From contig CACXDL010000030.1 in assembly GCA_902766395.1 (NCBI GenBank), positions 1 to 49,683 on the forward strand: a stretch of 49,683 bases of DNA, read 5' to 3'. Source of the DNA: an uncultured bacterium (lineage in GTDB: Bacteria > Cyanobacteriota > Vampirovibrionia > Gastranaerophilales > Gastranaerophilaceae). The notes below the pieces were generated by a model. The model did no database searches and was not told the origin of the DNA. It saw nothing but the letters and a program-made list of their open reading frames with translations. Shown in pieces: positions 6,576 to 41,498 of this stretch (position 1 is its first letter; the number at the start of each line of letters is the position of its first letter). Position numbers and translations under genes: made by a program.

Positions 6576-6605
6576 AAAAAATCCTGAAAGTTTTCAGGAT
6601 TTTTT
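6576..6605. terminator. Bidirectional terminator between ferritin and the 6605 gene
   Basis: A perfect inverted repeat, AAAAAATCCTGAAA / GT / TTTCAGGATTTTTT. It has A- and T-runs on both sides and sits between two convergent genes, so it can serve both strands. Confidence 0.85.
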
Positions 6606-8209
6606 TATGCCGTCTTTTGCAAATTATTTTTATTTTCTTGCTGTCTATATTGTTCAGTTCCAGGGAATGCATTCTGACCGGTTCTTATTTTTGTAATCAG
6701 ATATTGCAGTTTTGGAATAAATGTAGATAAAAATGCTGCAGAAATTACAAATCCTGTGCCCCAATTTATTGCATTCATCTTAAAGTTATGTTTAGATGCC
6801 TTAGCCAGTAAATCAGATGTTATTTCTTCAACACCTGCACTTTTTGCACGGTCAATAATAGACTGTACATAATTTATTAAATCTGCTTTCATTGCATCTA
6901 AATCACTTTGTGCAATATATTTATATTTATCCATAAATTTATTACCAAGAGAATTTTGATAGAAGGCCTTCAAAAATTCCGGATTATTGATATGTCCACC
7001 ATTAAATACAGCTTCCACCTGCGATTTTGTAATAACAGGTTCAAGAACTTTACTAACACTGCCATCTTCTTGAACATATTCATATATAAGCTTAGGTTGT
7101 AATTCTGACATTTTTTGCGCAAGTTCTTTTAATTTTTGAAGTTGAGACGGAGTATTATTACCGGCTTTATATAATGCACTGTAGAATGAATCAAGATTAG
7201 CTACTGAAGAATCTTTAAATAAATCTGAAACAGACCTTGGTACAGTTTTGGTTTCGCCAAGCATATCTTTTGCAAATTTATCGACAGAAACCTTGTTTGT
7301 TCCAACATAATTTTGCATATATTCAGTTGCAAATTTTGCAGAAGTAGGATCGAGTCTTGTTCCTATACCATTTTGCTCAAGTTTATTTAACCATCTGTTC
7401 ATATTTGGCATGTTGAACATATAGAAGTATACAGATGAAATATCTCTAAATCCAATTTCATATCTTTCATCATTATTTCTTGCAGAATATACGCGTCCGC
7501 TTGCTGTTCCCACATCAACAGATAATAATTTCCAATTTCTTTTATTTTCGAAATTATTTGCAAGGGTTAATAAGTCCATCCCGCCAAAAGAAATATCTTT
7601 ATTATTTTTATTATTATTAGCAAATTCTTCTATATTAGGAGCCTGCATAAAATTAACATTCGAGCCTGCCTGATTATCCGGCCTTTGAGCATCATTTTTA
7701 TGATAAGAACGAGTTATAGCCTGATTAATTTTTGGCAAAACAAAGCCAATAAACGCATTCGCAATCAAAACACTTGCTGCAACTTTTGCAAACTTAAATC
7801 TTGCCATCATTTTGCTTGTAATTTCTTGCGCATTTGTTTTCTTCTCTACTGCCAGGAATGTTTCTAGCGGTTTACGTACATCATCACTGGCAATATCAAC
7901 GGTTTTATTAGGAAGTTTTAATAATTTTTGACCAAGTTTTTCAAATACCCAGTTCAAACCGGTAACCCCACCTAACCAAAATACTGCACCTGAAAATTCT
8001 TCTGTTATTCTCTCCCTTGCCTCATCAAACCCACCTCTTTTATATGCCTGATAGGTCCTGCCTGCTTCAACACATGCTTCCAAAGCGATAACAGGCAAAA
8101 AGCCATCACTGGCCATAGCAGAAACTATTCTGCGGGGTTGAAATGCTCTTTTTATATTTTCAGCTGAAAATGTTTTATATGTTTTTACTTCTGGTATCTT
8201 TATAGACAT
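6605..8209 (-). CDS. Large unknown protein with two hydrophobic helices
   Basis: About 534 residues from the ATG at 8209 (MSIKIPEV); the ORF can extend 12 codons further to 8245, and neither start has a strong Shine-Dalgarno. No family is recognised. Hydrophobic segments lie near the N-terminal third (VAASVLIANAFIGFVLP) and near the C-terminus (GFVISAAFLSTFIP), each followed by basic residues. The middle is a soluble region of about 300 residues that contains DISFGGMD, resembling the SFxG motif seen at the N-termini of other unknowns here. It may be membrane anchored. It is divergent from another unknown membrane protein at 8421, and the two resemble each other in style. Confidence 0.7.
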   Translation of the reverse strand: MSIKIPEVKTYKTFSAENIKRAFQPRRIVSAMASDGFLPVIALEACVEAGRTYQAYKRGGFDEARERITEEFSGAVFWLGGVTGLNWVFEKLGQKLLKLPNKTVDIASDDVRKPLETFLAVEKKTNAQEITSKMMARFKFAKVAASVLIANAFIGFVLPKINQAITRSYHKNDAQRPDNQAGSNVNFMQAPNIEEFANNNKNNKDISFGGMDLLTLANNFENKRNWKLLSVDVGTASGRVYSARNNDERYEIGFRDISSVYFYMFNMPNMNRWLNKLEQNGIGTRLDPTSAKFATEYMQNYVGTNKVSVDKFAKDMLGETKTVPRSVSDLFKDSSVANLDSFYSALYKAGNNTPSQLQKLKELAQKMSELQPKLIYEYVQEDGSVSKVLEPVITKSQVEAVFNGGHINNPEFLKAFYQNSLGNKFMDKYKYIAQSDLDAMKADLINYVQSIIDRAKSAGVEEITSDLLAKASKHNFKMNAINWGTGFVISAAFLSTFIPKLQYLITKIRTGQNAFPGTEQYRQQENKNNLQKTA

Positions 8210-8420
8210 AAAATATATATTTCCATTATCTAAGATAACATGCATAATAATGGTAAATAAGTTTTTTTGCTCTAAAATGACATGTTTTTAATAATTTGTT
8301 ACACACAAAAACAATGATGTTTTCTATATGTAACAAAATTTTTACCTATATTATTTTTTATAGCAATATTTTCTTTGTTTGGTTTTTGCTATAATGTGAA
8401 GTGGCAGGAAAATAATAGTT

Positions 8421-9242
8421 ATGATTGATAAAATTAATGTAAATACAAATAATTTTAATCAAAAGTATTGGTCACAAGCCAATGCTAATTTCACACATTC
8501 TCCTGACAGAAACAACAATTTATCATTAAAACAAAAATCCGTAATTTTAGCATCTTCTGCTGCAGGTATGGCTCCTGTTTTGGGATTTTTGGCCCATAGA
8601 AAAGGTTTTTCACTTAATCCTAAAAGGATTCTTAAAACCCCAATAAAAGATTGGGCAATTTTTAAATATAAACCGAAAGGGAAATATATTGAATTTGAAG
8701 AACCTCAGATTATTGCATGCGCAACGGGATCAGTTGCCGGAGGTTTTGTGGGAGGAGCATTAGTAGACGATAAGTCTAATTTGAGAGCTAAAAAAAGAGA
8801 AGTATTAAGCCAATTACTCGGAGATGTAATCGTTCCGATAGCTTGTGTTGGAGCAGGAGCGAGAATATATAATCACTTTAAAGATCCTCTAATAAAAATA
8901 ATGCCTAAAATAAACATCACTTCTAAAATTGCCAGAGTAATAAAACCAAAAATATTTAATGCAATTAGTGAAAATATTCCTAGTGCTATTGCTACAATTG
9001 GTTCATTGGCAGTAGGTATTATTGCGGGAAACAGAGTTTCAAACGAAATTAATGAAAAACTTTACCATAAAAAAGTCGAAAGAGGAATTAAAGCAACAGA
9101 TTTTGCACCTCATGTTGACGATTTATGCATGTCTGCATCAATGGTAAATAAAGAATCCGAATTTGGAGCAAAACTAGGCAGGGTAATACCGCTTGCATTA
9201 CTTGTTCCCGGCTACGAAACAGGAACAGCTCAAGAAAAATAA
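8421..9242 (+). CDS. Unknown membrane protein with Asn-rich N-terminus
   Basis: 273 residues. It starts with an Asn-rich lead (MIDKINVNTNNFNQ...), followed by several glycine/alanine-rich hydrophobic segments near residues 39-57, 94-113, 128-145 and 190-208 (for example ATGSVAGGFVGGAL). Such small-residue segments suggest tightly packed membrane helices. No family is recognised. It is divergent from the 6605-8209 gene, which has similar hydrophobic segments, with a 175-210 bp shared promoter region. It converges with the next gene, leaving only 2 nt between the stops. Confidence 0.7.
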   Translation: MIDKINVNTNNFNQKYWSQANANFTHSPDRNNNLSLKQKSVILASSAAGMAPVLGFLAHRKGFSLNPKRILKTPIKDWAIFKYKPKGKYIEFEEPQIIACATGSVAGGFVGGALVDDKSNLRAKKREVLSQLLGDVIVPIACVGAGARIYNHFKDPLIKIMPKINITSKIARVIKPKIFNAISENIPSAIATIGSLAVGIIAGNRVSNEINEKLYHKKVERGIKATDFAPHVDDLCMSASMVNKESEFGAKLGRVIPLALLVPGYETGTAQEK

Positions 9243-9244
9243 AT

Positions 9245-10729
9245 TTATATTTCCCCGATACTGTCTATTTTATAATAACTACCAAGTTCTTCCTGCGCAA
9301 GAACTACAATATTATTAATATAAAGACTCAATAATGAGAAAAATATTTGTCTATATTCCATCGGAACAATAATTTTTGGAATATATATACCTAATTTCTT
9401 ACATTTTTTAAGTATTTTATTAGCAATTTTTTCAGCCATATCTGCATCTATTTTAATAACAGATTCATCGGCATCATCACACCCTAAAACCATTTCTGTA
9501 TAAGTTTTTTCGGATAACTCAAAAGCCGAAATTGTTTCTCCGTCTTCATTAACGTATTTTTTGCAAATTTGGCGGGACATAGTTAGTCTCAATTTATTAA
9601 TTATATCAATTCTTGCACCATCATCTGCAAAATCATTTATTTTTTCAAACAAATATGTGATATTTTTTATAGATACTTTTTCTTTTATAAGACTGGTCAT
9701 AATATATTTAATATCAGAATAGTTCAAAATATCAGGAATAATATTTTCTATAAGAAATGAATTCTCCTTTTCAACAACATCAAGATATTTATCTATATCT
9801 TCATAATCAAGCAAATCTTCCACATATTTAACAGCAACATACTCCAGCGCATGAGAAATATATTCCGAAGAAGTCATACCCTTTTGCCAAAAATCTTTTG
9901 ATTTAGATTTTTCTACCCAGATTATTTTTTGACCTGATATTTCATCAATACCATTTATAGAATTTTTTATTTTATGTTCTGTATGCAATTCATCAGCATA
10001 AAAGACTTTATATTTTGGATATACAATAGCTCTAAATACTTCCATTCCGCGTATTTTTATACAAAACTCATTTGGATTCAGGTTTTCATCATCTTTGAAT
10101 ACAACTTTTGGAATTATATAACCTAAAGTTTCTGTAAGATTAAGCCTTGATTTTACCGTCTGCGCAATAAGCTGTTCTTCCCCAAAATCAGGTCTTTCCG
10201 AATCTATAAATCCTAAAAGCTCTTCGCTTAGATATATTGCAAGTTTTTCTTCATGCAATTTTGAAAACATCAAATCAGGAGAAGTTGCTTTATTTAATTC
10301 TCCTTTTAAATCATCGAGATCTTTTAAGCCGGATGAAATTTTATCATTTAGTTTCTTACGGGAACCCGTTGCAGGGGATTCATTATCAAGTTCACTTTTT
10401 ATCCGATTAATTTCTTCTCTTTTTCTTTTAATTTTATCCTGAATTTCAAGACATTTTTCGTATTCGGTTATTTTAGGAGAAAGCATTTTTTCCATTTGAC
10501 TTTTAAAATCAGAAATACTTACAATATCACTTTCTGCAGAACTGCCGGATTTTGACTCTCTCATAAATATACAATTCATAAGAGCTTCAGAGTCCTCATC
10601 TCCAGACTCATGCATGCTATACAACTCCCATCCGTTCATGGACATTTCATTGAGCAGATTTTGAAGTTCCTGAGCATTTTCAGCTGAACATGTTCTTATA
10701 ACATATTCCATTTTGCCTTTTCCAAACAT
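9245..10729 (-). CDS. Soluble protein with DUF4177-like domain, coiled coil and FlhA/SctV-type cytoplasmic domain
   Basis: 494 residues from the ATG at 10729, preferred over 10744 because of an AAAGGTT site. The N-terminal 57 residues resemble DUF4177 (repeat-length hydrophobics, then NGWELYSM). Residues about 85-150 are a charged coiled coil. From about residue 160 to the end the sequence follows the cytoplasmic domain of FlhA/SctV (FHIPEP family): ETLGYIIPKVVF, NPNEFCIKIRGMEV, then SEYISHALEYVAVKYVEDLL, IENIIPDILNYSDIKYIMTSL, KEKVSIKNITYLFE, RLTMSRQICKKYVNEDGE. The eight membrane helices of FlhA are absent. No flagellar or type III secretion gene is nearby; it is the last gene of the bamA-skp-udp run. 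The FlhA_C assignment is by eye but covers the whole domain. Confidence 0.75.
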   Translation of the reverse strand: MFGKGKMEYVIRTCSAENAQELQNLLNEMSMNGWELYSMHESGDEDSEALMNCIFMRESKSGSSAESDIVSISDFKSQMEKMLSPKITEYEKCLEIQDKIKRKREEINRIKSELDNESPATGSRKKLNDKISSGLKDLDDLKGELNKATSPDLMFSKLHEEKLAIYLSEELLGFIDSERPDFGEEQLIAQTVKSRLNLTETLGYIIPKVVFKDDENLNPNEFCIKIRGMEVFRAIVYPKYKVFYADELHTEHKIKNSINGIDEISGQKIIWVEKSKSKDFWQKGMTSSEYISHALEYVAVKYVEDLLDYEDIDKYLDVVEKENSFLIENIIPDILNYSDIKYIMTSLIKEKVSIKNITYLFEKINDFADDGARIDIINKLRLTMSRQICKKYVNEDGETISAFELSEKTYTEMVLGCDDADESVIKIDADMAEKIANKILKKCKKLGIYIPKIIVPMEYRQIFFSLLSLYINNIVVLAQEELGSYYKIDSIGEI

Positions 10730-10748
10730 ATTGTAACCTTTCATAATT

Positions 10749-11513
10749 TTAATTTTTTTTATGTAAAAGTTTAATAGCCTCTATGGCAGTTTTAATAGCC
10801 ATATCGGTATCATGAACTACAGGATTTTCCAGATTTTGTTTTTCTCTTTCCTGATTTGCTACAGTCAAAAATACGGATCCGACTTTTACACCAAGATAGC
10901 TTGCAACAACAAATAACGCTGCTGATTCCATTTCAGAAGCCAAACATCCGAGTTTTTTCCAGGCCTCCCATTTATCAATTAAATCCTTACCTACCGGCTT
11001 AGTTTCCGGGTCATGCTGACCATAAAAAGAGTCTTTACACTGAACAACACCTGTATGATATGTGTAACCCATATTTTTGGCAGATTTAACCAATGCATTG
11101 ACAACATCTAAATTTGCAACGGCCGGAAATTCAATTGGTGCATATTCTCTGCTTGTTCCCTCTGCACGAATAGCACCCGTTGCAATTACGATATCTCCAC
11201 CCTTGACATTTATATCCATACCACCGCAAGTACCAACTCGAATAAATGTCTTTGCCCCAATTTTAACAAGTTCTTCCATCGCAATAGCAGCAGAAGGACC
11301 TCCAATACCTGTAGATGTCACACTGACTTTTACACCATCAACATAACCTGTATATGTTACATATTCTCGATTATCAGCGACAAGAACAGGATTATCAAAA
11401 TACTGAGCAATTTTTGCGCATCTCTTAGGGTCGCCCGGAAGAATAACATATTCTCCCACATCACCCTCTTTTAGTGCAATATGATATTGTCTGCCATCAT
11501 CGGTATATTTCAT
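10749..11513 (-). CDS. udp: Uridine phosphorylase
   Basis: 254 residues of the nucleoside phosphorylase-1 family. It would cleave uridine with phosphate to uracil and ribose-1-phosphate. Visible motifs are the phosphate-binding ILPGDPKR at about residue 24, GIGGPSAAI and RVGTCGG in the core, and the ribose/base-site SEMESAALF near residue 190. The length matches Udp (253). It is 10 nt downstream of skp and 19 nt upstream of the FlhA_C-like gene, so it is carried inside an outer-membrane assembly operon without an obvious functional link. Another phosphorylase specificity cannot be ruled out. Confidence 0.88.
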
Positions 11514-11523
11514 TTACATAATC

Positions 11524-11964
11524 CTATTGTTTTAACTGTTGAATTACTAAATCAGTTACATCAACACCGCCTACGAAAACAACCTGATCAGAAAGGATTG
11601 CATCTAATCTTTGAGATACCATTACACTCTTTGCAGCGGCTTGAACTTTACCTAAAATTTGAGCCTCTTTATCTTGTTGGAATTTAGCAAGAGCTTCTTG
11701 TTTTGATTTTAGCTCATTTGCAGTTTGAGATTCAAAATTTTGTTTTTGCAATGGAGTAGACAAACCTTTATATTGTTTTTCTTTTTCCAGCATATACTGC
11801 TGTAATTCAATACCCTTTGCATCAAGTTCTTTAACGGCTTGTTGAGCAGCCGGATAATTTTCTAAAATGCGACCATAGTCAATATATCCGACTTCAGCAT
11901 TTGCAGCAGTTCCAATACCAATCAAACCTGCAACCAATAAAGCAGCTAATTTTAAATTTTTCAT
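11524..11964 (-). CDS. skp: Periplasmic chaperone of the Skp/OmpH family
   Basis: 146 residues. The signal peptide has a hydrophobic core at residues 6-18 and a probable cleavage after ANA (residue 23). The mature protein begins EVGYIDYGRILENYP, typical of OmpH, and continues as a long amphipathic helical hairpin rich in Gln, Lys and Glu (about residues 40-110). Skp forms jellyfish-like trimers that hold unfolded outer-membrane proteins. It lies 23 nt downstream of bamA, the common arrangement in diderms, and is probably co-transcribed with it. Confidence 0.88.
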   Translation of the reverse strand: MKNLKLAALLVAGLIGIGTAANAEVGYIDYGRILENYPAAQQAVKELDAKGIELQQYMLEKEKQYKGLSTPLQKQNFESQTANELKSKQEALAKFQQDKEAQILGKVQAAAKSVMVSQRLDAILSDQVVFVGGVDVTDLVIQQLKQ

Positions 11965-11987: not shown

Positions 11988-14045
11988 CTAGTACATTATG
12001 TCTCCGACACCAAACGTGAAGTATCCGTGCTTGCTTCCGTTTCTACCCGGATTTGTAAGTGGGATACCATAATCGATTGATAACGGACCCATTCCCGGTA
12101 TAAATACTTTTAAGCCAACACCGGCTGAAACTGCATACATTGGTCTGTCGTATAAAGTATTTGAAACAGTCCCTTTAAATACTTTACCTGCATCCATCCA
12201 TACAGTGAATCTCAAATTATTAAGAAATGCAATTCTTGTTCTGTCCATAAATGGTATTGGTGTCGCAAATTCTGCAGAACCCATAGCAAAAGCATTACCC
12301 GTACCTACACCACTCATTTTGAAACCTCTTATTGTATATGGACCACCTAAGCGATAAGCCATAACTTCAGGAATATTTCCGTGAATTGCTCCTCCGGCCT
12401 TGGCAGTAAATGACAAAGAGGATTTCTTCGCAATAGGAATATATTGCTTGATCATACCTGTCAAACGTCCGTTAGTTTTATTTAAACCGTTTAAACCAAT
12501 GCTTTCATCAAATCTTAAACTTGCCAATGTACCATGTCTTGTAACGGTCGCAGAATCTCTTGTATCAAACATCAATGCAGGACTCAATGACAGGAACATT
12601 CCACCTTCTAACTGCTTCGCACGCTCAGACAGAGGCACATTATACTGTCTGTATAAAGAAGATATCTTTTTGAAATCACCTTCTTTAACATTGATATTTT
12701 CTAAACCTAAACTAAATGTTGCAGTAGCATGCTTATTATACTTTAATCTGTGAGCCACAGTCATTTCTGCGCCATATCTTCTTTCAATTGCCAACGGAAC
12801 CTGATAAGAACCAAAATCCCTAAAGAATATACGAGTGTTTAAAGAGTTGTCAGCATTGAAGAAATAAGGTTTGAAATAACTCAATTCTGCCTGAATATTC
12901 ATATGACCCTTAACTGATTCGTCATTCATTATCATGCCGGAACCGACCAAACCTGTTAAAGAAATCTTTTCAGCACGGCCACGGAAATTGTTTTCTGAAA
13001 TTCCGAGCGAACCGAATAAACCTGTTACTGTATCCAAACCACCACCAACAGATATACTTGCAGTTCTTTGTTCCTGAATTTTTATTGTAACATCATATGC
13101 ATCAGGAATATCTTCACTAGGTTCAATTTCTCTGGTTACATCTTTAAAAGCTTGTGTAGAATATAATCTTACTAAATCTTCTTTTATTAAGTTCTCATTA
13201 TAAACAGTACCCGGTTCAGTTAAAATATTACGTGCAATAATATAATCTTTGGTTTTTTCATTACCTTCGATCATTATTTTGTCAATAATGCCCTCTTTAA
13301 TACCGATATTAATAGTACCATCAGGGTCGTCAGTTACAGAATCAACTCTAGATAAAATGTATCCTTTTGAGTTGTATAACTCCTGAATTTGAGCTATTGC
13401 GATATTTATCTGCGCTATATTTTGCGGTTTACCTTTCATTCCGATAAGTTTTTCCAAGATATCTTCTGTCGGAATAACGGTATTTCCCTCTATTGTAAAA
13501 TCTTTTACCGGTAAATTCTCCTCAACAATAATTTTGATACTAACTGTATCATCTTCATTGTATGTAGGTACAACTTTCATCTTTTCAGAAAAATACCCTA
13601 ATTCATAGATCGCTTTAAGATCTTCCTGCATCATATCACGACTGTATTCACCGCCTTTTTTCATTTGGATTTTGGAAAGAATTTCGTCTTCAGATACAGA
13701 ATTTAAACCATAAAATTCAATGCTTCTAATTGTTCTGTGCTCTTCAGAACCTGAAGCTGAAGAAACTGTTGAAACTATCGGTTCACTCGCCGTTGGCAGC
13801 ATGTTCTGGGAATAAGACGGCTGCTCAATATCAGGAACCTGAATGTCATGTTCCTTCATAGGTGGGGTATATGTATTAAAAATAGTGCTTTGGCTTGCAC
13901 CTTTATTAATGGATTCGTTTGTTAAGCCCATATTCCCCCATACATCATCAACTGCATTAGCAGGGATTTGGACTAATGGAATTATAAATGTGATTAGTAG
14001 TATTTTCTTTAGCGCGCTGAAATTCAAGTATTTATTCCTTAACAA
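11988..14045 (-). CDS. bamA: Outer-membrane assembly factor BamA (Omp85), three POTRA domains
   Basis: 685 residues. The basic/hydrophobic N-terminus is a signal peptide ending near PANA (residue 31). A linker of about 70 residues follows, then three POTRA domains (about 104-175, 178-255 and 257-330; first IRSIEFYGLNSVSEDEI, last KIMIEGNEKTKDYI). The C-terminal barrel carries the loop-6 motif RLGGPYTIRGF and ends in a C-terminal beta-signal-like stretch. BamA folds beta-barrel proteins into the outer membrane. E. coli has five POTRAs, whereas three is the cyanobacterial pattern. First gene of bamA-skp-udp-(FlhA_C-like). Confidence 0.92.
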   Translation of the reverse strand: MLRNKYLNFSALKKILLITFIIPLVQIPANAVDDVWGNMGLTNESINKGASQSTIFNTYTPPMKEHDIQVPDIEQPSYSQNMLPTASEPIVSTVSSASGSEEHRTIRSIEFYGLNSVSEDEILSKIQMKKGGEYSRDMMQEDLKAIYELGYFSEKMKVVPTYNEDDTVSIKIIVEENLPVKDFTIEGNTVIPTEDILEKLIGMKGKPQNIAQINIAIAQIQELYNSKGYILSRVDSVTDDPDGTINIGIKEGIIDKIMIEGNEKTKDYIIARNILTEPGTVYNENLIKEDLVRLYSTQAFKDVTREIEPSEDIPDAYDVTIKIQEQRTASISVGGGLDTVTGLFGSLGISENNFRGRAEKISLTGLVGSGMIMNDESVKGHMNIQAELSYFKPYFFNADNSLNTRIFFRDFGSYQVPLAIERRYGAEMTVAHRLKYNKHATATFSLGLENINVKEGDFKKISSLYRQYNVPLSERAKQLEGGMFLSLSPALMFDTRDSATVTRHGTLASLRFDESIGLNGLNKTNGRLTGMIKQYIPIAKKSSLSFTAKAGGAIHGNIPEVMAYRLGGPYTIRGFKMSGVGTGNAFAMGSAEFATPIPFMDRTRIAFLNNLRFTVWMDAGKVFKGTVSNTLYDRPMYAVSAGVGLKVFIPGMGPLSIDYGIPLTNPGRNGSKHGYFTFGVGDIMY

Positions 14046-14108: not shown

Positions 14109-14921
14109 CTATTTACCAATTGCTGTCTTATATATTGCATTTTTGTTCCAGTTATATAACTCCGACAAAATAACAGATATATCTTTTGCACTATAACCAT
14201 TATTTTGTAGAATTTTTATTTTGTTTGTCATCTCTTTTTCATTTTGATTATTATTATCACGAAATATTAAGACAACAAATTCACCCTTTGGTGATTCTTT
14301 TTCAAAATGATTTATAAGATTCCCGGTATAATCTATGAGAACCTCTTCAAACATTTTTGTTAATTCTCTGCCAATTGCAATTTTTGCATTCGGACGACTT
14401 TTTTCAATCATTTTTAATGTGTTTAATATTCTGTTTGGGGATTCATAAAAAACCAAATCAGAATTTTCATACTTTTTTAAAATATCATTTATCTGATTTT
14501 CAACTCTTGGTAAAAAACCAATAAAAGTAAAACTTTCATCCTCTCTTGAAATTTGAGATAAAAATGTAATTATGGCATTTGCACCTGCAAGAGCAGAAAT
14601 TCTAAAACCTCGGTTCCTTAATTCTTTTACAATAACACTGCCGGGATCACAAATTAATGGAGTTCCGGCATCAGAAACCAAGGCGATTTTATTACCATTT
14701 TCCAAAAGTTTTACAAACTCATTTATGCGTTCTTTCTCATTATATTTGTGATAAGAAATACATCTTGTTCTGATATCATAATGATTTAAAAGTTTTTGAG
14801 TGACTCTGCTATCTTCACAAGCAATATAATCAACCGATTTTAAAATCTCAATTGCCCTTAGCGAAATATCTCCAAGATTTCCTATCGGAGTTGGAACTAC
14901 ATAAAAATCAAATTCTTTCAT
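14109..14921 (-). CDS. rsmI: 16S rRNA C1402 ribose-2'-O-methyltransferase
   Basis: 270 residues. The protein methylates the ribose of C1402 in 16S rRNA, using SAM. Family marks are VVPTPIGNLGDISLRA at the N-terminus, ACEDSR near residue 36, SDAGTPLICDPG near residue 84 and YESPNRI near residue 150. The length is normal for this tetrapyrrole-methylase fold. It is 63 nt upstream of bamA on the same strand and may be part of the same transcript; a small hairpin lies in the gap. Confidence 0.93.
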   Translation of the reverse strand: MKEFDFYVVPTPIGNLGDISLRAIEILKSVDYIACEDSRVTQKLLNHYDIRTRCISYHKYNEKERINEFVKLLENGNKIALVSDAGTPLICDPGSVIVKELRNRGFRISALAGANAIITFLSQISREDESFTFIGFLPRVENQINDILKKYENSDLVFYESPNRILNTLKMIEKSRPNAKIAIGRELTKMFEEVLIDYTGNLINHFEKESPKGEFVVLIFRDNNNQNEKEMTNKIKILQNNGYSAKDISVILSELYNWNKNAIYKTAIGK

Positions 14922-39401: not shown

Positions 39402-41498
39402 ATGCTAAAAAAAAGATTAGTAATATTTATTATTTTATTTTGCTTTATATTCAATAACATCAGCGTTTTTGCGTTTGATACAAAATATCCTGATTACTCA
39501 TACGAATTTTTGGGGAATGATAAACTGGAAAAATTCAACAGGAAAATGTTTAATTTTAATCTAAAATTAAATAAATACGCAATACGCCCTATTCACACAC
39601 TTTGGGCATCTGTCATGCCTGAATACGGGATGGACAGATTACACGGAATAACTAACAATATTGAATATCCTATCAGGCTTATCAGCAGTTTAATACAAAA
39701 AGATTTTAAAACTTCAAAAAATGAAAGTATAAGATTTTTTATTAACACGATATTAGGTCTTGGCGGAATGTATGATCCTGCAAGACATCTGTTTAAAATC
39801 GAGCAGACAAAAGAAAATATGGAACAGGCTCTTGCAAGTTGCAACATAAAGCCGGGACCTTATTTTGTTTTACCTGTTTTAAATTTTACAAATATCAGAG
39901 GAATTTTCGGAAAAATTCTTGATATGGCATTTAACCCAAGTACATACGTTGGAACACCGGTGTTGGCAATAGTAAAAGCCGGATTAACAATAAATCGAAC
40001 ATCATATCTTCAGCCTTTATTTTCAATGGTAGAATCAACATATGCAGACCCTTATGACATTGCCAAAAAAGCCTTTGGTATTGATAGTTATATAAAATGT
40101 AAAAACTACGATCGGGAAAATATAATCTCGTCTTTATCTGTTGGGGATATCAAAACCGCATCACACAATGAGGAAAAATTACCAACAAAAAATATTACAC
40201 AAGAAAAAAATAACTCTGATAAAAATTTAGTTTCTGTTGAAGTATCTTCAGAAGTCGTCAATCCAAATATGCTGTATGGAGGAACATTCATAGACGAAAT
40301 AAATAAAAACTTTGGAGCTGAAAACTTTAAACTTGACCCTGATAAAAAATTATTTGGGTACAACCCTCAAAACCCAGTTGTTGACTCAATGAGAACAGCA
40401 TTAATGCAAATGAGCTGCCCCGAAAAATCAATGTGGAATGAATTATCAATCTGGAACAGAAACTTTTCAAAAAGATTAAAAACGGAATCTGTTAATATTG
40501 TAGAAAACAGAGAAAACTATCACTTTAAATATCTTATGCAAAAAGAAAAAAATGCACCTGTTGCAGTAATATATCCCTCTATCGGAGAAGGGATAAACTC
40601 AGGAAATTCTGCAATATTCGGAAAAATATTTTATGACGCAGGTTATTCCGTAATAATACAAGGAAGCCATTTTCAGTGGGAATTTGTAAAAAGTATGCCC
40701 CCAGACTACAGACCCGGACTACCTGCAAAAGATTGTGAAGCCGTTAAAAATGTTACGGCAAAAATTGTCAAAAAACTTGAAAGTAAATATAACTGCAACA
40801 TAAACGATATCACAATTATCGGAACTTCCTTCGGCGCAGTAATTACTCTTTTCACCGGCGCTAGTGAATTTCGTAATAATACACTCGGAAATACAAAATA
40901 TATCGCAATCTGTCCACCCATAGACCTTATTTACGCAATGAAACAAGTAGATAAAAACTCACAAGATTTTAATAATTCTTCAAATGATTTAAAAGAAAGA
41001 GTTGCATTAAGCGCAGCAAAAATCGTGAAAATTTTTGAAAATAAAAAAGACATAAACTTTGAAGTCAATAATCTTCCTTTTAGTGAAGAAGAAGGCAAAT
41101 TGATAACAGGATTTTTAATGCATCAAAAACTATCTGATTTAATATTCACAATTGAAAATAATTCAAATAAAACCGCAAATTCGGATAATTATAAAATGAT
41201 AAATAATATGGGATATCAGGATTATGCAAAAAAATATTTAGTGACAGAAGAAAACAAAAATTTTGAAGATTTTAGTTATGAAGCAAGCCTGCACTCAATT
41301 TCAAACTATCTTTCCAACGCAAACAACTACAAAATATATCATTCAATAAATGATTATCTGACAAATAAAAACCAGCTAAAACAACTCAAACAATACTCCG
41401 GAAATAAAACAGTTTTATTTGATAATGGCGCACATTTGGGTTTTACATACAGAAAAGAGTTTCTTGAAGATTTAAAAAATACAATTGCACTTAAATAA
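39402..41498 (+). CDS. MlaA domain fused to an alpha/beta hydrolase
   Basis: 698 residues. The signal peptide (hydrophobic 6-25) has no lipobox cysteine, unlike E. coli MlaA. Residues about 30-235 match MlaA/VacJ: DKLEKFNRKMFNFNLKLNKYA, RFFINTILGLGGMYDPA, GPYFVLPVLNFTNIRG. MlaA removes misplaced phospholipids from the outer-membrane outer leaflet. After a linker, residues about 365-698 resemble an alpha/beta hydrolase, with nucleophile elbow GTSFG (Ser476) and a C-terminal GAHLGF (His678). The fusion suggests lipid removal and hydrolysis in one periplasmic or outer-membrane protein. The acid residue of the triad is not identified. Confidence 0.78.
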   Translation: MLKKRLVIFIILFCFIFNNISVFAFDTKYPDYSYEFLGNDKLEKFNRKMFNFNLKLNKYAIRPIHTLWASVMPEYGMDRLHGITNNIEYPIRLISSLIQKDFKTSKNESIRFFINTILGLGGMYDPARHLFKIEQTKENMEQALASCNIKPGPYFVLPVLNFTNIRGIFGKILDMAFNPSTYVGTPVLAIVKAGLTINRTSYLQPLFSMVESTYADPYDIAKKAFGIDSYIKCKNYDRENIISSLSVGDIKTASHNEEKLPTKNITQEKNNSDKNLVSVEVSSEVVNPNMLYGGTFIDEINKNFGAENFKLDPDKKLFGYNPQNPVVDSMRTALMQMSCPEKSMWNELSIWNRNFSKRLKTESVNIVENRENYHFKYLMQKEKNAPVAVIYPSIGEGINSGNSAIFGKIFYDAGYSVIIQGSHFQWEFVKSMPPDYRPGLPAKDCEAVKNVTAKIVKKLESKYNCNINDITIIGTSFGAVITLFTGASEFRNNTLGNTKYIAICPPIDLIYAMKQVDKNSQDFNNSSNDLKERVALSAAKIVKIFENKKDINFEVNNLPFSEEEGKLITGFLMHQKLSDLIFTIENNSNKTANSDNYKMINNMGYQDYAKKYLVTEENKNFEDFSYEASLHSISNYLSNANNYKIYHSINDYLTNKNQLKQLKQYSGNKTVLFDNGAHLGFTYRKEFLEDLKNTIALK

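Follow-up and report, generated by a model that had tools for sequence, protein, structure and literature searches.

The window analysed here, 49,683 nt of DNA from an uncultured bacterium of the Gastranaerophilaceae, encodes a soluble paralog of the cytoplasmic domain of the type III export gate (FlhA_C). This protein is specific to the order Gastranaerophilales and near-universally retained there. Its descent is nearest to the gate of a second, flagellum-like type III system of these bacteria, designated system B. Its probable place of action is the cytosolic side of system B, with the role of an accessory gate-ring subunit or an adaptor.

Domain architecture and fold

The minus-strand ORF 9245..10744 comprises 499 aa. 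The favoured start is the ATG at 10729, the sixth residue of the ORF, where the homologs begin in the alignment; it lies a short way behind the upstream stop. The gene thus extends over 9245..10729 (-) and its product has ~494 aa. All parts of the protein (residues numbered from 10744) are encoded on the minus strand. An N-terminal beta-alpha-beta-beta head (residues 12-63, 10556..10711) with a weak likeness to DUF4177/Sp36 is followed by a low-confidence linker (residues 66-92, 10469..10549, pLDDT under 50) and a helical hairpin or coiled coil (residues 94-154, 10283..10465), which stands where FlhA has its membrane domain. The remainder is the FlhA/SctV cytoplasmic domain D1-D4 (residues 165-499, 9248..10252). 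By homology, its D2 subdomain covers residues 245-291 (9872..10012) and its D3 subdomain residues 312-386 (9587..9811).

Pfam FHIPEP (PF00771) matches residues 152-489 by its C-terminal half only, at profile positions 317-654 of 657 (E 1.3e-43, 150 bits, curated cut-off 29.1). Positions 1-316, the multi-pass membrane export-gate domain, are without a match. No membrane segment is predicted in the window protein: The maximum hydropathy is 1.45 and no 19-residue window reaches 1.6, compared with 74 windows at or above this value in the full-length gate that the window's genome also encodes. By sequence, the FlhA_C entry 3mix was found in the PDB (E 4e-22). The AlphaFold model (mean pLDDT 76.5) predicts the coiled coil as a hairpin of helices H94-121 and H126-154. 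In a fold search, the model matched 23 FlhA/SctV entries with Z 22.8-30.8 over 287-335 aligned residues, spanning residues ~134-499, and the TM-score normalised by target reached 0.87, i.e. the D1-D4 fold is present. Profile, fold and hydropathy therefore bear out the first-pass annotation, according to which the protein follows the FlhA cytoplasmic domain and lacks the membrane half.

With flagellar FlhA_C (PDB 3a5i, 6ch1, 7amy), the soluble protein shares the whole D1-D4 fold over ~320-335 residues (Z 29-31) as well as the conserved positions W276, R386 and usually R391. It differs from FlhA by the absence of the membrane domain, in whose place head and hairpin stand, by the lack of GYXLI, by T/S in most cases at the F459 position and by the loss of the T490-H491 pair. 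The SctV_C domains (MxiA 4a5p, YscV 7alw, SsaV 7awa, CdsV 6wa6) share the fold (Z 23-30) and the emphasis on D3, but identity in the structural alignments is only ~15-18% and the membrane domain is again missing in the soluble protein. On the NCBIfam equivalogs the window protein scores 140.7 bits for TIGR01398 (FlhA, flagellar gate, cut-off 772) and 81.2 bits for TIGR01399 (SctV, injectisome gate, cut-off 692). It has the fold of a type III gate ring and is a member of neither the FlhA nor the SctV family. Its nearest relative in the window's genome (G000) is a full-length B-type FHIPEP on contig C69 (L032:3669-5774) with 27% identity over 384 columns (E 3e-40). Both share the D3 motif EKVSIK-I--FE, whereas the B gate has 701 aa and a membrane domain.

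In the head, Y14, N32, M34, W39 and C58 are invariant among the homologs. DUF4177 (PF13783) yields 15.1 bits on the window protein, below the curated cut-off of 25, and borderline matches at E<0.05 in 13 of 22 homologs (best 3.2e-4). Similarly, NCBIfam Sp36 matches the head at E 2e-5, below its cut-off. Of the proposed DUF4177-like head with a coiled coil, the small beta-alpha-beta-beta domain and the hairpin are thus predicted, while the likeness to the small domains DUF4177 and Sp36 stays borderline. A fold search with the head returned weak matches to common arrangements (KCTD5 C-terminal domain with Z 5.9, ACT-like, GNAT pieces), and a function derived from them was rejected, as they are too weak to interpret.

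Two type III-type systems in Gastranaerophilales

Flagellated families encode a gate of ~870-890 bits adjoining fliP-fliR-flhB together with flagellin, MotB and a FliF of ~170-190 bits. All families have a second set, system B, whose gate (~690-725 bits) is clustered with FliE, FliF, a FliG-position protein and FliH, in some cases also with FliI and the rod proteins FlgB/C/F/G. FliMN-FliO-FliP-FliQ-FliR of system B are encoded away from this cluster. In the window's own genus, the ordinary flagellum has been lost and only the system B set is present. Its parts there are FliP, FliF, FlhB, FliI, FliMN, FliO, FliQ, FliR, FliH, FliE and rod proteins, with one FliP per genome where it was found (two in one genome) and one FlhB. 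The genome of the window carries FliF, the FliG-position protein, FliH, FlhA, FliMN, FliO/P/Q/R, FlhB, FliI and FlgB/C/F/G on contigs C69, C8, C100, C95 and C67 (L032, L075, L097, L098, L096). Flagellin was detected in one of 25 own-genus genomes (a stray hit in an assembly with 6% contamination) and MotB also in one of 25 (a weak, partial match); neither was found in the window's genome. System B is, in this genus, a complete flagellum-like set without filament and stator.

In NCBIfam, FlhA-B, FlhB-B, FliF-B and FliR-B reach neither the flagellar nor the injectisome cut-off. The B gate on contig C69 reaches 697 bits compared to the FlhA cut-off of 772, and 587 compared to the SctV cut-off of 692. 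FliP-B just exceeds the flagellar cut-off (222 vs 217), and a relative's flagellar gate scores above the one for FlhA. The possibility that the full-length gate of the window's genome is a flagellar FlhA was rejected, since flagellated relatives have this gate plus a better-scoring FlhA adjoining fliP-fliR-flhB. Earlier papers took the small number of flagellum-type genes in such genomes for an incomplete flagellum or an ongoing reduction (PMC3787301, PMC4040986). The coexistence of both sets in relatives disfavours this reading. The list of flagellum-related genes in PMC3787301 has two entries named flhA, the second of which may be the soluble protein. No description of type III secretion in Melainabacteria or Gastranaerophilales was found in the open-access library searched.

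Two proteins (L033:963-2024 and L072:17335-18001) begin with MGL[AS]xxQxR...ARKSNVEYxGQQINQARTALANQ, which resembles an axial-protein coil. One of them is encoded near a FliE-FliF-B operon, and the L033 protein has no significant Pfam match. Both are candidate substrates of system B.

Distribution and descent

The roughly 490-aa soluble protein was found in 40 of 40 related genomes (own included). The B gate is present in 38 of them, the remaining two assemblies being 78% and 82% complete, and the flagellar gate in only 13. In the class-wide sample, all own-family genomes except G241 give a best match attributable to the soluble protein alone (E 1e-122 or better), with the copy of G261 interrupted by a contig end; in G241, the B gate is kept and the soluble protein was not detected. 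Best matches in other orders of this sample have E 4e-79 or weaker and fit full-length gates, as confirmed in 16 genomes. There, A and/or B gates occur without the soluble protein, so system B has no general need of it. Among the matches listed for the phylum-wide sample, none with full coverage lies outside Gastranaerophilales. Altogether, the intact protein occurs in well over 100 genomes of many genera and at least seven families. The named carrier contigs belong to Candidatus Gastranaerophilales and Melainabacteria MAGs, the order being confirmed in the taxonomy, and many of these MAGs were obtained from the guts of ruminants and other animals.

For a maximum-likelihood tree computed from the cytoplasmic domain (48 rows, 332 columns), the root was assumed to lie at the flagellar gates. 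The 25 soluble proteins form one clade on a long branch (100/100), which joins the B gates apart from the flagellar gates (100/100); its closer position beside the core B clade has a support of 94/86. An origin from the flagellar gate was rejected by this tree. The first-pass annotation had suggested reuse in another assembly, and the grouping with the B gates supports this suggestion, as does the persistence of the protein where the flagellum is lost (see below).

Changed and conserved sites in the ring domain

Sites of the soluble proteins and gates were mapped via an alignment with Salmonella FlhA, whose chaperone-docking dimple comprises D456, F459 and T490. In flagellar FlhA, the dimple residues, H491 and GYXLI serve to dock chaperones or to drive domain motion (PMC5932034, PMC9431611). 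Among 25 soluble proteins, the D456 position is D in 24 and the F459 position T/S in 21, and most carry other residues instead of T490-H491. Of 14 B gates, 9 retain T490 and all retain H491, and 12 have Y where Salmonella has F459. At the GYXLI position, flagellar gates have GYRLV, B gates GSNLL and own-genus soluble proteins SEELL. Judged by sequence, the soluble protein has neither the flagellar chaperone-docking dimple, whose D2 positions are altered, nor the GYXLI switch. Since the dimple is lost, substrate docking cannot be assumed. In SsaV, D3 is the ring-forming subdomain that bears most ring contacts (PMC8223533). Identity between the soluble protein and the B gate is highest in D3 (35%), with D1 close behind, and amounts to 15% in D2. 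For a nonameric ring, this conservation of D3 is an indirect sign. The changed dimple and GYXLI together with the well-conserved D3 argue for a ring-type module with altered partner specificity and not for a spare flagellar docking platform.

The same changes would fit a cytosolic decoy or timer that acts outside the gate ring, binds substrates, chaperones or FliJ/FliI-type partners off the membrane and thereby limits secretion: The protein is soluble and anchor-less, the altered F459, T490/H491 and GYXLI positions indicate a binding specificity different from that of the membrane gate, and in one family its gene adjoins fliJ-fliK. However, the most constrained part is the ring subdomain D3 (dN/dS 0.010) instead of the docking cleft, and a pure inhibitor need not be retained so uniformly. 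This role is therefore rather unlikely, although it survives best among the alternatives to a gate-ring function.

Gene neighbourhood

Upstream of the soluble gene and on the same strand, the window encodes a udp-like nucleoside phosphorylase (10749..11513), skp/ompH (11524..11964), the Omp85 gene bamA (11988..14045) and an rsmI-like methylase (14109..14921), all on the minus strand. The order rsmI-bamA-skp-udp followed by the soluble gene is that of the own family; rsmI, bamA and skp are conserved upstream neighbours there, and in 79 of 83 loci from this family, bamA and skp precede the soluble gene with the same orientation. This conservation, together with the loss of the export-specific dimple and GYXLI motif, would suit a protein that has abandoned export and whose FlhA_C fold was recruited to envelope biogenesis with BamA and Skp. 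But in other families of the order this context is missing: In that of G030, the soluble gene is preceded by infC and rplT, and in the remaining families it is a singleton with unrelated neighbours. Moreover, the tight co-occurrence with system B would have to be a coincidence. A recruitment to envelope biogenesis is unlikely as well and ranks behind the decoy.

In own-family loci, the FliI-B gene is located 1.4 kb downstream (four loci) or 5-6 kb upstream (two loci) of the soluble gene, and in one own-family locus the system B rod operon lies 3.5-5 kb upstream. Such proximity is weak support, since with about five B units per 1.9-Mb genome a part of it would arise by chance. A location behind bamA-skp-udp and far from flagellar genes, as noted in the first-pass annotation, thus applies to the window but not in general, because B ATPase or rod genes occur within 7 kb in these loci, and in G030 the soluble gene directly precedes fliJ-fliK-flgD-flgE.

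This flagellar run in G030 could point to a service for the ordinary flagellum, e.g. as an export or hook-switch factor. Such a role is improbable and largely refuted by the retention of the protein in genus g1 and in G037 from another family, neither of which has flagellin, MotB or the flagellar gate. The soluble protein hence outlives the flagellum in non-flagellated relatives, and it groups with the B gates and not with the flagellar ones.

Several other genes around these loci deserve mention. Two window genes, 6605-8245 (-) and 8421-9242 (+), belong to no Pfam family; in roughly half of the own-family loci inspected, they are conserved neighbours downstream of the soluble gene. The B FliG-position protein has a stand-alone relative of 227 aa (L051:11376-12059) with 38% identity over 157 aa; in seven loci, L051 among others, such a gene lies at most about 4.5 kb from the soluble FlhA_C gene. 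Elsewhere in the window, 39402-41498 (+) encodes 698 aa with an MlaA lipoprotein domain at residues 39-225 only and a long C-terminus without a Pfam match.

Purifying selection

The soluble gene is under strong purifying selection without decay. In a synonymous-site comparison, its median dN/dS is 0.031 over 20 pairs (filtered run). For comparison, the B gate gave 0.04 (6 pairs from own-genus loci), Udp 0.06, BamA 0.088 and Skp 0.22, with sets of pairs that differ between the genes. The first run had contained one outlier pair at 0.63; in the filtered run none exceeds 0.07. Head, hairpin and FlhA_C are all constrained. A truncated flhA left from a lost machine or joined by an assembly artefact, which the loss of the flagellum in the genus might suggest, is refuted by the intact gene in well over 100 genomes from many genera and at least seven families, its own conserved head, a dN/dS of ~0.03 and, in the window's genome itself, a full-length gate with a complete second type III core. 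Of the two options left in the first-pass annotation, use and remnant, only the first has held.

Other re-headed paralogs

In single lineages of the same class, further FlhA_C paralogs with exchanged heads occur. The one at L110:5286-6143, from the own genus, has a predicted coil ahead of D1 and D3 and lacks D2 and D4. At L109:5972-6979, two hydrophobic helices precede D1 and D3, again without D2 and D4. In the L204:7042-8823 protein, an N-terminus resembling the B FliG-position protein and two hydrophobic helices are combined with D1-D3-D4; the identity to the B proteins is 27% and 39%. The L193:6998-7867 paralog, from another order, adjoins a full-length B gate; a further one is located at L203:6567-7424. 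Several paralogs with different heads mean that the gate ring domain has been re-headed more than once.

In L033, L051, L067, L078, L097 and others, there are numerous small proteins whose N-terminus resembles that of type IV pilins (e.g. GFTLAEVLITLGVIGVVAALTIP), in some cases encoded in tandem.

Possible role and biological meaning

A function in system B is what the data support best. The D3-centred ring module would be incorporated into the FlhA-B ring, as a subunit that substitutes for FlhA-B or adds a second tier, or, alternatively, form a ring of its own beneath it. Standing in place of the membrane anchor, head and hairpin would recruit a different partner: the ATPase complex, substrates or chaperones. 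Conceivably, the hairpin might even stand in for FliJ. Against a role in system B speaks that outside one family the soluble gene shows no linkage with type III genes, and that in the own family it belongs to the bamA-skp operon. More tentatively, system B might be a third type III machine, neither flagellum nor injectisome, with a hetero-oligomeric or two-tier cytosolic gate composed of the anchored FlhA-B and re-headed soluble FlhA_C subunits. If this is true, the exchanged heads of gate subunits (hairpin, membrane hairpin or FliG-like) would set content and timing of export.

In the known FlhA/SctV gates compared here, the ring domain sits on its own membrane anchor. A detached order-wide copy together with re-headed copies would show that subunits of more than one kind can build or regulate a gate ring. 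Furthermore, the soluble protein points to a complete and conserved type III-type system that was previously read as an incomplete flagellum (PMC3787301, PMC4040986). System B could be a route of protein export for non-motile gut Melainabacteria.
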